DNA of 64,000 bases from Limnohabitans planktonicus II-D5. GTDB taxonomy: Bacteria > Pseudomonadota > Gammaproteobacteria > Burkholderiales > Burkholderiaceae_C. The stretch lies in contig NZ_LFYT02000001.1 of NCBI RefSeq assembly GCF_001270065.2, positions 1 through 64,000 of the forward strand, in the 5' to 3' direction. Positions 7,706-58,591 of this stretch are shown here, piece after piece. The translations under genes and the position numbers were made by a program. Under the pieces are notes generated by a model. The model did no database searches and had not been told where the DNA came from. It saw nothing but the letters and a program-made list of their open reading frames with translations. Position 1 is the stretch's first letter. Each line of letters starts with the position of its first letter.

Positions 7706-8361
7706 AGGCTCATATTTTTGTCATTGAAGACGATGCCGAATTGGCCCAAAGTCTGAAGGTGCTGCTGACCTCGGCAGGCGCAGAAAGTGTGCGTTGCTTC
7801 GAGTCACCCACGCAATTCATCAAAATCTATCCAGACCTCTCCTCTACGTTTCAGGAACAGGGATGCGTGCTGATGGACATACGCATGCCAGACATGACGG
7901 GCTCCGAGCTTTTTGCGCTCATGCAAAGTCAAAATTTTCCATGGCCCGTGATCTTCATGACAGGCCATGGAGACTTGTCGATGGCCGTGACTTTGATGAA
8001 GGCCGGGGCATTTGACTATGTGACCAAGCCATTTGATCCCATGCGACTGCTTGAAAAAGTGCAAGCTGCCATGCAACTGTCCAATTCGAGGGTTGCTGAC
8101 CAGGTGTTCAAGCGCGAGCACCTGGCCAGGCTCCTGTCATTGACACATCACGAGAGCCAGGTGTTTGCCCGCATCCTGAACAACCAGACCAATCGCGAAA
8201 TTGCCGAAGTGATGGAAAACAGCGTGCGCACGATCGAAACCCATCGCGCCAACATTTTGAAAAAAATGGGCAAATCCTCCGCCCTGGAACTGGCCCAAAT
8301 CCAGGAACGCTTCAAGCTGCTGGGTGGAATGACACCATTCCCCATGACGCAGCCTCATTGA
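7702..8361 (+). CDS. FixJ/NarL-family response regulator
   Basis: 219 residues. The receiver domain has the acidic pair D10/D11, phosphoacceptor Asp59 (LMDIRMPDMTG), Thr87 (FMTGHGD) and Lys109 (VTKPF). The C-terminal LuxR-type helix-turn-helix contains NREIAEVM and VRTIETHRANILKKMG. Longer readings of the frame exist upstream, but ATG 7702 overlaps the kinase stop as ATGA and gives a canonical receiver N-terminus. It is the cognate partner of the kinase before it. The divergent adhesin is the obvious candidate target, but no binding site was demonstrated. Confidence 0.93.
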   Translation: MKAHIFVIEDDAELAQSLKVLLTSAGAESVRCFESPTQFIKIYPDLSSTFQEQGCVLMDIRMPDMTGSELFALMQSQNFPWPVIFMTGHGDLSMAVTLMKAGAFDYVTKPFDPMRLLEKVQAAMQLSNSRVADQVFKREHLARLLSLTHHESQVFARILNNQTNREIAEVMENSVRTIETHRANILKKMGKSSALELAQIQERFKLLGGMTPFPMTQPH

Positions 8362-53132: not shown

Positions 53133-53927
53133 ATGCCCATTCCCAATGCCCTCTCGTTTGGCCTGCAAGGCCGTGTGGTCATCGTCACCGGCGCGGCCAA
53201 CGGCATTGGCGAGGCCTGTGCCCGCCGCTTTGCTGGCGAAGGTGACCATGTGGTGCTGGCCGATGTGAACAGCGAGCGCGGCGCTGCCGTGGCCGCCGAG
53301 CTGCGCAGCGATGGCCACAGCGCTGGCTTCATGGTCTGCGACGTTTCGCGCAAGGCCGATGTCGACGCCTTGGTGGACCATGTGCTGCAGGCCTTTGGCC
53401 GCGTGGATGTGCTGGTCAACAACGCGGGCATTTTCAAGGCGGCTGATTTTCTGGACGTGACCGAAGAAGACTTCGATGCCGTCATCAAGGTGAACATCAA
53501 GGGCTCGTTTTTGATGGGCCAGGCCGCTGCCCGCGCCATGAAGAGCACCGGAGGCGGCTCCATCATCAACATGAGCTCGGTCAACGCGGTGCTGGCCATC
53601 CCCAACATCGCCAGCTACAACGTGAGCAAGGGCGGCATCAACCAGCTGACGCGGGCCATGGCTTTGGCGCTGGCCGACTTCGGTATCCGAGTGAACGCAG
53701 TCGCCCCCGGCACCATTGCCACCGAGCTGGCACGCCAGGCGGTGCTGACCAGCGAGGCCGCCGAAAAGAAAATCATGATGCGCACGCCCATGAAACGCCT
53801 GGGCGAACCCGACGAAGTCGCCAAGGTGGTGGCCTTTTTGGCCAGCGATGCGGCAAGCTACATCACCGGTGAAATCGTCACCGTGGACGGCGGTCGCATG
53901 GCGCTCAACTACACCGTGCCTGTTTGA
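53133..53927 (+). CDS. Short-chain dehydrogenase/reductase
   Basis: 264 residues. Motifs: TGAANGIG, NNAGIF, catalytic Ser in NMSSVNAV, Tyr-x3-Lys in YNVSKGG. A good ribosome site (AAGGAG) precedes ATG 53133. It is the first gene of a five-member plus-strand operon-like row that also holds a thioesterase, GloA and an SDR with unusual motifs. The substrate is unknown. Confidence 0.9.
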   Translation: MPIPNALSFGLQGRVVIVTGAANGIGEACARRFAGEGDHVVLADVNSERGAAVAAELRSDGHSAGFMVCDVSRKADVDALVDHVLQAFGRVDVLVNNAGIFKAADFLDVTEEDFDAVIKVNIKGSFLMGQAAARAMKSTGGGSIINMSSVNAVLAIPNIASYNVSKGGINQLTRAMALALADFGIRVNAVAPGTIATELARQAVLTSEAAEKKIMMRTPMKRLGEPDEVAKVVAFLASDAASYITGEIVTVDGGRMALNYTVPV

Positions 53928-53941
53928 AGAAAACCCCATTG

Positions 53942-54502
53942 ATGAACACATCCTCCTCCCTACTCGACAGCTGGTTGGCGCAAGAGCAAGTGGTGCGCCA
54001 GCGCCTGGATGCAGGCGCTGGCCCCGGCGTGGCGCGGCCGGACCAAGTCGCAGGCAAAACCGGCCTGGAAGTCATGCAAGGCCTGCTCAGCGGTGAACTG
54101 CCCTACGCCAGCATCGCCAAAACACTGGACTTCGTGCTGATCGAAGTCAGCGCAGGCCAAGCCATTTTTCAAGGTACCCCGGGCTTGAACCACATGAACC
54201 CGCTGGGCACCGTGCACGGCGGCTGGTTTGCCACCTTGCTCGACTCGGCCTTGGGCTGCGCAGTGCACACCATGATGCCGCCCGGGCGCGGCTACACCAC
54301 GGCCGACCTGAGCGTCAAGCTCGTCAAAGCCCTCACACCCAAAGTGCAGCGCGTGCGGGCCATTGGCCAGGTGGTGCACTGTGGCCGCCAACTGGCCACC
54401 GCCGAAGCCCGGCTGGTCGGCCCTGATGGCACACTCTATGCCCATGCCAGCACCGCTTGCCTGGTTTTTGAAATGCCTTCCCCAACTGGAAACAAACCAT
54501 GA
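53942..54502 (+). CDS. PaaI-type hotdog-fold thioesterase
   Basis: 186 residues. The hotdog thioesterase pattern [20 protein letters not shown] (with the HGG turn) is characteristic of PaaI/YdiI-type enzymes, and the later [12 protein letters not shown] fits the family. It would hydrolyse acyl-CoA thioesters. The N-terminal about 50 residues are a less conserved lead-in. ATG 53942 follows the SDR stop by 14 bp, and the stop overlaps gloA by 4 bp. Confidence 0.85.
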
Positions 54503-54909
54503 GACTCCTTCACACCATGCTGCGCGTGGGCGACCTGCAACGCTCCATCGACTTCTACACCAACGTGATGGGCATGAAGCTGCTGCGCACCTCGGAAAAC
54601 CCCGAGTACAAATACTCGCTGGCCTTTGTGGGCTATGGCAACAACCCCGACCACGCCGAGTTGGAGCTGACCTACAACTGGGGCGTTGAAAGCTACGAGA
54701 TGGGCACGGCCTATGGCCACATTGCCCTTGGCGTGCCCGATGCCTATGCCGCTTGCGAAAAAATCAAGGCCGCTGGCGGCAGAGTCACACGCGAGGCCGG
54801 CCCCGTCAAAGGCGGCACCACGGTGATCGCTTTTGTGACCGACCCGGATGGCTACAAGGTCGAGCTGATCCAGCGGGCCGAATACGCAGCGGGCCAAGGC
54901 TTGAGCTGA
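54499..54909 (+). CDS. gloA: Glyoxalase I (lactoylglutathione lyase)
   Basis: 136 residues. Metal ligands are present: His in [10 protein letters not shown], Glu in HAELELTYN, His in YGHIALGV and Glu in KVELIQ. This quartet and the length identify the Ni/Co-type bacterial GloA, which converts the methylglyoxal-glutathione hemithioacetal to S-lactoylglutathione. It overlaps the thioesterase by 4 bp. Confidence 0.94.
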
Positions 54910-54925
54910 AAAACGGACTCAGCTC

Positions 54926-55603
54926 ATGATCGACCTGAGCGGCCAACGCATTCTGGTGACCCAGGCCAAAGACTTCATGGGCCCAGCCCTGTGCCATGAG
55001 CTGAAGGCCTGCGGTGCCGAAGTGATCGCTGACGAGCGCCTGCTCACCCACCCGCTGGACGCACAGACGGTGATCGAGGCGGCCGGGCCGCTGGATGCGC
55101 TGGTGATCAACTTGGCGCTGCCTGCGCCGTCCACGCCGATCACGCAGATTGACGAGGCCGAATGGCGGCAGGTGTTTGAGGTGATGGTCGACCCGCTGCC
55201 CCGCTTGGTGCGGGCGGTGGTTCCCGGCATGAAGGCCCGTGGCGGCGGCAAGATCGTGGTGATGGGCAGCGCCTCTGCCTTGCGCGGCATGAAGCGTGCC
55301 GCCACCTACAGCGCGGCGCGGGGTGCGCAGCTGGCCTATGTGCAGGCTGCGGGCGTGGAGCTGGCCCCGGACAACATCCAGCTCAATGCGGTGGCGCAAA
55401 ACTTTGTTGACAACCCCACCTACTTCCCGCCCGAGGTGCAGGCCAACCCGCGTTTTCAGGAGCGCCTCAAACGCGAAGTGCCGCTGGGCCGCTTGGTCAA
55501 AGCCGAAGAAGACGCCCGCTTTGTAGCCTACCTGTGCAGCAATGCGGCCAGCTGCTTTGTCGGGCAGGTGTTCCCGATGTCGGGCGGCTGGGCGGTGCGC
55601 TAA
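54926..55603 (+). CDS. Halohydrin-dehalogenase-like SDR (both family signature motifs present)
   Basis: 225 residues of SDR fold but without the TGxxxGxG cofactor loop. The N-terminus has T12-Q-A-K-D-F17-M-G19, matching the T-x4-F/Y-x-G halide-site signature, and S115/Y128/R132, matching S-x12-Y-x3-R. In normal SDRs the last residue is Lys. The closing segment VDNPTYFPPEV and FVGQVFPMSGGW resembles the HheC layout. The known family releases halide from vicinal haloalcohols, giving epoxides, with no NAD(P)H. Whether this enzyme does so is untested. It starts 16 bp after gloA. Confidence 0.75.
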   Translation: MIDLSGQRILVTQAKDFMGPALCHELKACGAEVIADERLLTHPLDAQTVIEAAGPLDALVINLALPAPSTPITQIDEAEWRQVFEVMVDPLPRLVRAVVPGMKARGGGKIVVMGSASALRGMKRAATYSAARGAQLAYVQAAGVELAPDNIQLNAVAQNFVDNPTYFPPEVQANPRFQERLKREVPLGRLVKAEEDARFVAYLCSNAASCFVGQVFPMSGGWAVR

Positions 55604-55614
55604 AAGCCCCACCT

Positions 55615-55750
55615 CGTCATTGAGAGCGCAGCGCGGCCCTTCAGCAACAGCCGAATGCACTGAAAGGACCATGTCGTCATTGCGAGCGCAGCGTGGCAAT
55701 CCAGCAACAGCTGCCTGGACTGCCACGTCGCTTCGCTCCTCGCAGTGACG
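55615..55750. repeat. REP pair of the CATTGCGAGCGCAGCG type
   Basis: A partial copy (CGTCATTGAGAGCGCAGCGC) is followed by a full one (CGTCATTGCGAGCGCAGCGT then GGCAATCCAG). An opposed arm TGCCACGTCGCTTCGCTCCT ends CGCAGTGACG. This is a distinct REP family, seen in many proteobacteria. Confidence 0.8.
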
Positions 55751-56123: not shown

Positions 56124-56759
56124 TCAGCGCGGCAACCGACTCGCCTCACGCGCCAAGGCTTCAATGCGTGACCAGTCGCCTTGGGCCAAGGCATCTGCAG
56201 GCACCAACCACGATCCACCCACGCAAGCCACATTAGGCAAGCTCAGCAGCTCATGGGCGTTTTGCTGCGTCACGCCGCCCGTTGGGCAGAACTTCACATC
56301 AAAAAACGGACCGCTCCAGGCCTTGAGCATGGCCGGGCCGCCCGCTTGCATGGCCGGGAAGAATTTGAGTTCGGTGTAGCCGTCCTCCTGCGCCATCATG
56401 ATTTCGCTGCCGGTGGCCACCCCGGGCAGCAATGACAAACCGTTGTCGCGGCAAGCCTGCCCCACCGCACGGGTGTAACCGGGGCTGACCGCGAAACGGG
56501 CACCGGCTTTGGCTGCTGCTGCGGCGTCAGCTGGGCTGCGCACCGTGCCCGCCCCCACCACTGCGCCGGGTACTTCCTGCGCAATCGCTTGCATGCAAGC
56601 CAGCGCATGCGGGGTGCGCAAGGTGACTTCGAGCATGCGGATGCCACCCGCCACCAGGGCGCGGGCCATGGGCACGGCATGGGCCACATCGTTCAACACG
56701 ATCACGGGGATCACGGGGGCGTCCTGCATGACTTGCAGGGCAGAGAAATTCACAGCCAT
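56124..56759 (-). CDS. eda: KDPG aldolase
   Basis: 211 residues. Class I aldolase patterns: [20 protein letters not shown], Glu in [17 protein letters not shown], Schiff-base Lys in LKFFPAM and [11 protein letters not shown]. It cleaves 2-keto-3-deoxy-6-phosphogluconate to pyruvate and glyceraldehyde 3-phosphate, the last Entner-Doudoroff step. Its start overlaps the edd stop by 10 bp, so the two are coupled. Confidence 0.95.
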
Positions 56760-58591
56760 GTGCAGGCTCCTTCTTCGGCTTTGAGCGCATTACGGCGCAG
56801 GTTGGCAAACAGTTCACGGCCCATGCCCACGCCGTTGGCGGCGCGCAGCTCGGCGGGCATTTGGGCCAATGGGCGGGCAGCCCATTCGGCCTCGCTCACC
56901 AGCACTTGCAAGGTGCCTGCCACGCCATCGAGGCGGATCAGATCGCCGTCTTGCACTTTGGCCAGCGGTCCACCGGCTGCGGCTTCGGGTGAGACGTGGA
57001 TGGCGGCAGGCACTTTGCCCGAGGCACCGCTCATGCGGCCATCGGTGACCAGCGCCACCTTGAAGCCCTTGCCTTGCAGCACCGCCAGCGGCGGCGTGAG
57101 TTTGTGCAGTTCGGGCATGCCGTTGGCTTGCGGGCCTTGCCAGCGCACCACACAGACAATGTCGCGGTCCAGCTCGCCTGCCTTGAACGCGGCTTGCAGT
57201 TCGTCTTGTGAATTGAACACGCGGGCCGGGGCTTCGATGACATGAAAGGCTTCCGGCACGGCCGAGATCTTGATCACGCTGCGGCCCAGATTGCCTTGCA
57301 AGAGCTTCAAGCCACCTGTGGCGCTGAACGGGCTGGTCGCGGGTCGCACCACGGTGTCGTCTTGGCTGGCATCTGAATCGTGCCATACCAGCTGGCCATT
57401 TTGCGCAGAAGGGATGCGGGTGAATTCACGCAGGCCGCCAGGGCGCACCGTGAGCACATCGGCGTGCATCAGGCCAGCATCGAGCAGTTCGCGGATCACA
57501 TAACCGGGACCACCTGCGGCCTGGAACTGATTCACATCGGCACTGCCATTCGGATACACACGCGTCAGCAGTGGCACCACGTCCGACAGGGCAGAAAAAT
57601 CGTCCCAGTCGATCACGATGCCCGCCGCACGCGCCACCGCCACCCAGTGGATCAAATGGTTGGTCGAGCCGCCCGTGGCCAGCAAGGCGACCATGGCGTT
57701 GACGATGCAGCGCTCGTCGACCAAGCGGCCAATCGGCGTGAAGTTTTTGTCCTTGACCAGCGCCAGCACGGTGCGGGCCGCTTCACGGGTCAGGTCCTGG
57801 CGCACGCTTTCACCCGGGTTGATGAAGGCCGTGCCGGGCACATGCAGGCCCATAGCTTCGAGCAGCATCTGGTTGCTGTTGGCCGTGCCGTAAAAGGTGC
57901 AGGTGCCTTCGCCGTGGTAGGCCTTCGACTCCGCTTCCAGCAATTCGGGGCGGCCCACCAGTCCCAGTGCAGCTTGTTCACGCACCTTGGATTTTTCGTT
58001 GTTGGACAGGCCGCTGGTCATGGGGCCTGCGGGCACAAACACGGTGGGCAAATGGCCAAACTGCAGGGCACCGATCAAGAGGCCCGGCACGATCTTGTCG
58101 CACACACCCAGCATCAGGGCCGCGTCAAACACGTCGTGGCTAAGCGAAACAGCCGTGGCCATGGCGATCACATCGCGGCTGAACAGGCTCAGCTCCATGC
58201 CCGGTGTGCCCTGGGTCACGCCATCGCACATGGCGGGCACGCCCCCGGCCACTTGGGCAGTGGCTCCCAATTTGCGGGCCTCGTCTTTGATAAGGTCGGG
58301 ATAGTGCTGCAGCGGCGCGTGGGCCGACAGCAAGTCGTTGTAGGCGTTGACGATGCCAATGTTGGGCGCACGCGGTGCGACCACTTTGATTTTGTCGAGC
58401 GCCGTGGCACGGCCCTTGTCGCCTTCGGGCATGGCGGCAAAGGCGTGGGCCACGTTGGCGCAGCCCAGGCGCTGGGCACCGGGGTCGCGTTGGGCAGCGG
58501 CATCCACCTGCTGCAAATAAGCCTGGCGGGTCGGGCGACTGCGTTCGGTGATGCGGGCTGTGACCGCGATCAAAATCGGGTGAAGGGTCAT
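56750..58591 (-). CDS. edd: 6-phosphogluconate dehydratase
   Basis: 613 residues. Family features: [22 protein letters not shown], the Fe-S cysteines in [31 protein letters not shown] and [13 protein letters not shown], and late [15 protein letters not shown] with the catalytic Ser. It makes KDPG from 6-phosphogluconate supplied by GntK or glucose metabolism. The protein is distinct from the IlvD/Edd enzyme at 28274-30022, which lacks these residues' spacing. It is followed directly by eda. Confidence 0.96.

Follow-up and report, generated by a model that had tools for sequence, protein, structure and literature searches.

A predicted D-type halohydrin dehalogenase encoded at a variable gene slot in Limnohabitans planktonicus

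Identification of a D-type halohydrin dehalogenase

Here we examined a gene at positions 54,926 to 55,603 of a 64,000-nucleotide stretch of the Limnohabitans planktonicus II-D5 genome (contig NZ_LFYT02000001.1, positions 1 to 64,000; the whole stretch is called the window), and we assign its product, by homology and with high confidence, to the D-type halohydrin dehalogenases (HHDHs). Taking all the results together, the gene, called hheD below, very probably encodes a cofactor-free enzyme of this type, which would interconvert haloalcohols with epoxides and halide on a short-chain dehydrogenase/reductase (SDR) fold in which an anion pocket has taken the place of the nucleotide site; in this lineage the gene is optional and under purifying selection. 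The HHDH family is already well described, and the presence of such an enzyme is expected rather than surprising.

A sequence-only reading of this gene had proposed that its protein (window HheD) carries both HHDH signature motifs, lacks the glycine-rich TGxxxGxG loop of SDRs and has an arginine in place of the lysine of redox SDRs, and on each of these points we came to the same result. Motif 1 reads T12-QAKD-F17-M-G19 and motif 2 reads S115...Y128-SAA-R132, and scans of the protein for the Gly-rich loop ([TS]Gxxx[GA]xG) and for the redox-SDR pattern S-x(10-14)-Y-x3-K gave no match; the SDR counterparts of the two motifs are T-G/A-x3-G/A-x-G and S-x(10-14)-Y-x3-K (PMC11976700, cited, like the other PMC papers below, for the excerpts available). 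Of the normal NAD(P)H site that would have spoken against the family, the nucleotide loop is thus missing. Residues T12, F17, G19, S115, Y128 and R132 never vary in an alignment of 33 homologues (window HheD and 32 of the 53 related loci found), and among the 24 other SDR-like proteins of the host genome, which the HheD query matches at 25 places, motif 2 is absent throughout and motif 1 occurs as a stray match in two. Because of this invariance and of the absence of motif 2 from the other host proteins, the motif pair goes beyond chance. The same two motifs have served to mine HHDHs: 37 new genes came to light in this way, and a selected 19 of them were confirmed to be active (PMC4989007).

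In a first pass over 50 gene calls of HheD homologues, motif 1 was found in 45 and motif 2 in 49. Cut contigs and short gene calls account for the misses at all but two loci, L050 and L060. At both, the hheD-like gene near position 8001 looks broken: in L050 a stop follows shortly after an intact motif 1, and in L060 motif 1 is absent from that frame, with the apparent damage near the start.

The best PDB matches, by sequence and by fold, were HheD2 and HheD8, followed by HheB. HheD2 from a gammaproteobacterium (PDB 7b73) shares 66-68% identity, the same motifs, the tree group and a similar length (230 amino acids; PMC5892878) with window HheD, although about one third of the residues differ; this identity lies inside the range of 57-95% to verified HheD enzymes that is given for HheD19-38 (PMC4989007). 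HheD8 (PDB 8xxb, the triple mutant A69F/M124P/R127G and, going by its title, a chloride-bound D-type structure) shares 57-60% identity and the same tree group. Its mutated sites map by alignment (offset +2) to A67, M122 and A125 of window HheD, which equals wild-type HheD8 at the first two and has Ala at the third, where HheD8 has Arg. HheB (PDB 4zd6) is the nearest other subtype (42-43% identity), but its motif 1 has Tyr where window HheD has Phe, and it falls outside the D group of the tree. The sequence-only reading had also likened the region after the last strand to that of HheC (PDB 1pwx): NPTYFPPEV and GQVFPMSGGW are both found in window HheD, and the layout is common to HheC, which has the same motif pair, but HheC itself is distant (63.9 bits versus 325 for HheD2).

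The phylogenetic tree, built with HHDHs of types other than A and G, separated window HheD and the other HHDHs from the 24 SDR-like proteins of the host with support of 100/99, so that the placement inside a non-dehalogenase SDR clade, which we tested in this way, was not found. Window HheD fell within a group of 34 rows that also holds HheD2 and HheD8 (support 93/95, just under the star level). Motifs, PDB matches in sequence and fold, and tree thus all back the family call, and sequence comparison places the protein in the D-type, far from HheC. An alphaproteobacterial HHDH-like protein (L058, 2068-2745), 51% identical to window HheD and paired with HheB in the tree (99/94), may connect types B and D.

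Table 1. Features of the hheD locus in the window
Feature	Positions	Strand	Evidence
Redox-type SDR (TGAANGIG, YxxxK), heads the tandem row	53133..53927	+	NF005559 277 bits (cut-off 215)
Hotdog-fold thioesterase, overlaps gloA start; listed TTG start, ATG at 53942	53924..54502	+	TIGR00369 68 bits (cut-off 36.6); PF03061
gloA (lactoylglutathione lyase), ending 16 nt before hheD	54499..54909	+	TIGR00068 176 bits (cut-off 120)
hheD-like gene, predicted D-type HHDH, 225 amino acids	54926..55603	+	ATG start; sequence, PDB matches, tree
Motif 1, T12-x4-F17-x-G19, nucleophile pocket replacing nucleotide loop	54959..54982	+	Sequence; invariant in 33/33; defined in PMC4989007 (excerpt)
Motif 2, S115-x12-Y128-x3-R132, catalytic triad, Lys replaced by Arg	55268..55321	+	Sequence; invariant in 33/33
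Q158-P168, aligns to SNYVENPDYFP from PDB dehalogenase 6a41; presumed to form the second wall of the halide pocket	55397..55429	+	Alignment; wall role presumed
eda-like gene, convergent with hheD, other border of variable slot	56124..56759	-	Name presumed
edd-like gene	56750..58591	-	Name presumed

Structure model and proposed mechanism

An AlphaFold monomer of window HheD computed on the 33-row alignment reached a mean pLDDT of 86.3 and a pTM of 0.83, with lower confidence near residues 111-130, 161-170, 181-190 and 221-225, the catalytic loop included; HHDHs are homotetramers as a family feature (PMC4989007). A halide pocket is predicted from homology. By analogy with HheC, on which the mechanism was established (PMC4989007, PMC11976700), R132 would lower the pKa of Y128, the substrate hydroxyl held by S115 would give up its proton to Y128, and the substrate oxygen would displace the vicinal halide to form the epoxide, the halide leaving into a pocket that the T12-G19 loop and probably also the stretch 158-168 would line. 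In the reverse direction epoxides would be opened by halide, azide, cyanide or nitrite. Sequence, motifs, clade, fold match, gene order and low dN/dS are observed here, and dehalogenase activity, substrates and pathway are predictions. The epoxide product could be cleared by a protein resembling epoxide hydrolases, whose gene lies elsewhere in the genome.

Distribution and selective constraints

Within the genus, hheD was detected in 26 of 90 genomes (19 of the 56 good ones) at E<=1e-60, three of the carriers having an allele of 62-65% identity. In a sample of the family, 58 of 399 genomes carried it, spread over 40 of 141 genera (E<=1e-50), and in a sample of the phylum 4 of 398 did (E<=1e-60, the host genome counted in). 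The earlier description of HHDHs as rare therefore fits the phylum but fails for the family. Eight of the relatives at 86-97% identity are Limnohabitans records (one, L059, a fragment). A literature search for halohydrin dehalogenase and Limnohabitans jointly returned a co-mention solely through a reference list. Contigs of metagenome-assembled genomes labelled Akkermansia muciniphila (L019) and Klebsiella pneumoniae (L055) also carry hheD-like genes, at 93% and 64% respectively; at least the Akkermansia label looks wrong, because that contig shows the Limnohabitans gene order.

Among 17 of the 22 near sequences, the median dN/dS (simple Nei-Gojobori) was 0.066 (0.026-0.140; 135 usable of 136 pairs). 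By these low values hheD is under purifying selection where it is present, which suggests that it has a function there.

Genomic context and the variable slot

In the window the SDR, thioesterase, gloA and hheD genes follow one another on one strand, overlapping or separated by no more than 16 nt, and eda and then edd, as we take these two genes to be from their sequence, run the opposite way. In 19 of the 22 loci that most resemble the window, gloA lies immediately upstream of hheD; hheD is elsewhere in L024 and L057, and L059 is cut by a contig end. We also inspected 15 hheD-free genomes of the genus, picked by hand from 64, and in 12 of them gloA and eda keep their adjacent order with gaps of 0 to about 1.2 kb. 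Two of these 12 (L078 and L083) have a 327-amino-acid open frame with a signal-peptide-like start between gloA and eda, and the largest frame in the other gaps checked was 117 amino acids. As for the other three genomes, one contig stops after gloA (G034), one stretch has no eda (G017) and in one the thioesterase alone was found (G009). Searches for hheD remnants at 18 loci of the 15 genomes gave no clear case: the sole tblastn match (E<0.5) was a 20% match (1e-4) to an SDR-like frame just after gloA in L088, probably another SDR, and the sole blastn match (E<0.1) was one of 21 nt between the spacer downstream of hheD and a remote site in L082. Because the gloA-eda order persists without hheD, two genomes have a different frame there and clear remnants were not found, we conclude that the slot is variable and has several occupants, among them hheD, which usually sits between gloA and eda.

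The row with a thioesterase and GloA, to which the sequence-only reading had drawn attention, does exist in the window, but it shows no pathway; since the row also exists without hheD, it is not evidence for one. We likewise rejected a conserved operon partner as functional evidence. Neighbour clusters (within 3.5 kb and common to at least 3 of 54 loci, that is, the 53 and the window) stay within the near clade or close relatives; exceptions are an SDR match in L043 and what is presumably a ureG-like gene in L031, L034 and L045. Loci L040 and L049 have no genus name, and the simple custom calling of open reading frames missed hheD in 4 loci of the 54 and gave it too short in others, so that neighbours may also have been missed. 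In L031, L034 and L045 (two Comamonadaceae and one gammaproteobacterium) the hheD-like gene adjoins or lies near this ureG-like gene. Outside the near clade the neighbours of hheD vary between genera; in Thauera loci we take them, from their sequence, to be alpha/beta-hydrolase-like, or photolyase-like and phosphodiesterase-like, genes.

Right after hheD, the window holds a dispersed repeat (CGTCATTGCGAGCGNAGCG..GGCAATCCA; 55675-55703, plus strand) with an imperfect inverted partner, seen by eye, to about 55752. Its pattern has 52 exact matches in the genome, against 0 for the reversed control pattern.

Candidate partner enzymes in the host genome

HheC is predicted to work jointly with an A. 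radiobacter epoxide hydrolase (PMC11976700), and in an engineered DhaA-HheC-EchA route trichloropropane is turned into glycerol (PMC5539299). The hheD row of the window holds no epoxide hydrolase gene, and searches of the host genome for epoxide hydrolases by the EHN domain and by the LEH family found none. A PF00561 search gave 30 matches, and a loose scan with motifs that we take to mark an Asp nucleophile gave output for 12 of these loci, and a good deal of this output lay in other frames. Four loci were chosen by eye for further search (L120, L121, L123 and L125); the NCBIfam matches of the L120, L123 and L125 proteins all stayed below cut-off. The L120 protein, encoded on contig C48 and not on the contig that carries hheD, is epoxide hydrolase-like (best PDB match 5nfq, 1.9e-44). 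On contig C3, one open frame (L121 766-2247; about 299,116-300,597 of the contig in the host genome, G000) joins TadA (tRNA adenosine deaminase; NF008113 204 bits, cut-off 150) to a DhlA-like haloalkane dehalogenase behind it (NF002043 326 bits, cut-off 265; PDB 2xt0, 3.5e-107). Contig C21 encodes a fluoroacetate-dehalogenase-like protein (PDB 3qyj 5.8e-78, 9c9f 2.1e-73) with no NCBIfam match over cut-off, and contig C6 a protein with a similar motif. TIGR01428, for type II haloacid dehalogenases, gave six matches in the host genome, none over cut-off.

In the genus, the epoxide hydrolase-like gene occurs in 78 of 90 genomes and the DhlA-like dehalogenase part in 77. Neither is associated with hheD: the former is present in 22 of 26 carriers and 56 of 64 others (Fisher p 0.74), the latter in 23 and 54, respectively (p 0.75). 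Among the genus relatives of the epoxide hydrolase, 21 copies of about 58-63% identity have one in-frame stop within the match (19 TAA, 2 TAG), which perhaps marks a different gene end. The co-occurrence of the three enzyme classes is a lead and no pathway evidence. Freshwater Limnohabitans-type bacteria might run a natural route from haloalkane through halohydrin and epoxide to diol, with the DhlA-like/TadA fusion and the epoxide hydrolase as near-core enzymes, HheD as an accessory middle step that is acquired or lost at the variable slot, and natural organohalogens rather than pollutants as substrates, but we regard this as unlikely.

Alternative explanations

Whether the native reaction of the enzyme is dehalogenation deserves separate consideration. 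Window HheD could be an HHDH by fold and catalytic residues that natively opens or forms, with a different anion, an epoxide of natural origin or some other beta-substituted alcohol, its halide chemistry being promiscuous, and this would be compatible with the family call. The gene is under purifying selection, yet its locus holds no halohydrin pathway cluster and its neighbours differ in other genera; moreover, of the known HHDH genes only two share an operon with an epoxide hydrolase gene, and other physiological functions are conceivable (PMC4989007). The motif residues, however, match those of dehalogenating enzymes, and the literature excerpts examined name no natural substrate. We hold this explanation to be possible, though the less probable one.

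The compact row on one strand, and the position of gloA directly upstream of hheD in most of the near loci, could also point to a dedicated operon for the detoxification of electrophiles formed with the SDR, the thioesterase and GloA. The hheD-free genomes that keep gloA next to eda argue against it; in addition, some hheD carriers (for example, L014, L016 and L020) lack the SDR or the thioesterase or have it in another place, and in the neighbour clusters the row genes do not recur outside the near clade, save for an SDR match in L043, to which a further SDR match in L033 can be added. We regard such an operon as unlikely. A redox SDR that depends on NAD(P) and matches the motifs by chance would agree with the Pfam matches and displayed NCBIfam matches of the protein, which carry SDR labels only, but the missing Gly-rich loop and Lys, the PDB matches, the invariance of the motifs and the tree make this extremely improbable.

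Implications

Adopting the assignment to the D-type HHDHs, the 53 related loci and the 58 carriers among 399 family genomes make up a broad set of D-type-like HHDHs that are candidates for biocatalysis. If the haloalkane-to-diol route were true, D-type HHDHs would thereby have a physiological role. Related genomes either have or lack hheD at the same slot, and a comparison of such strains could address the natural role of HHDHs.
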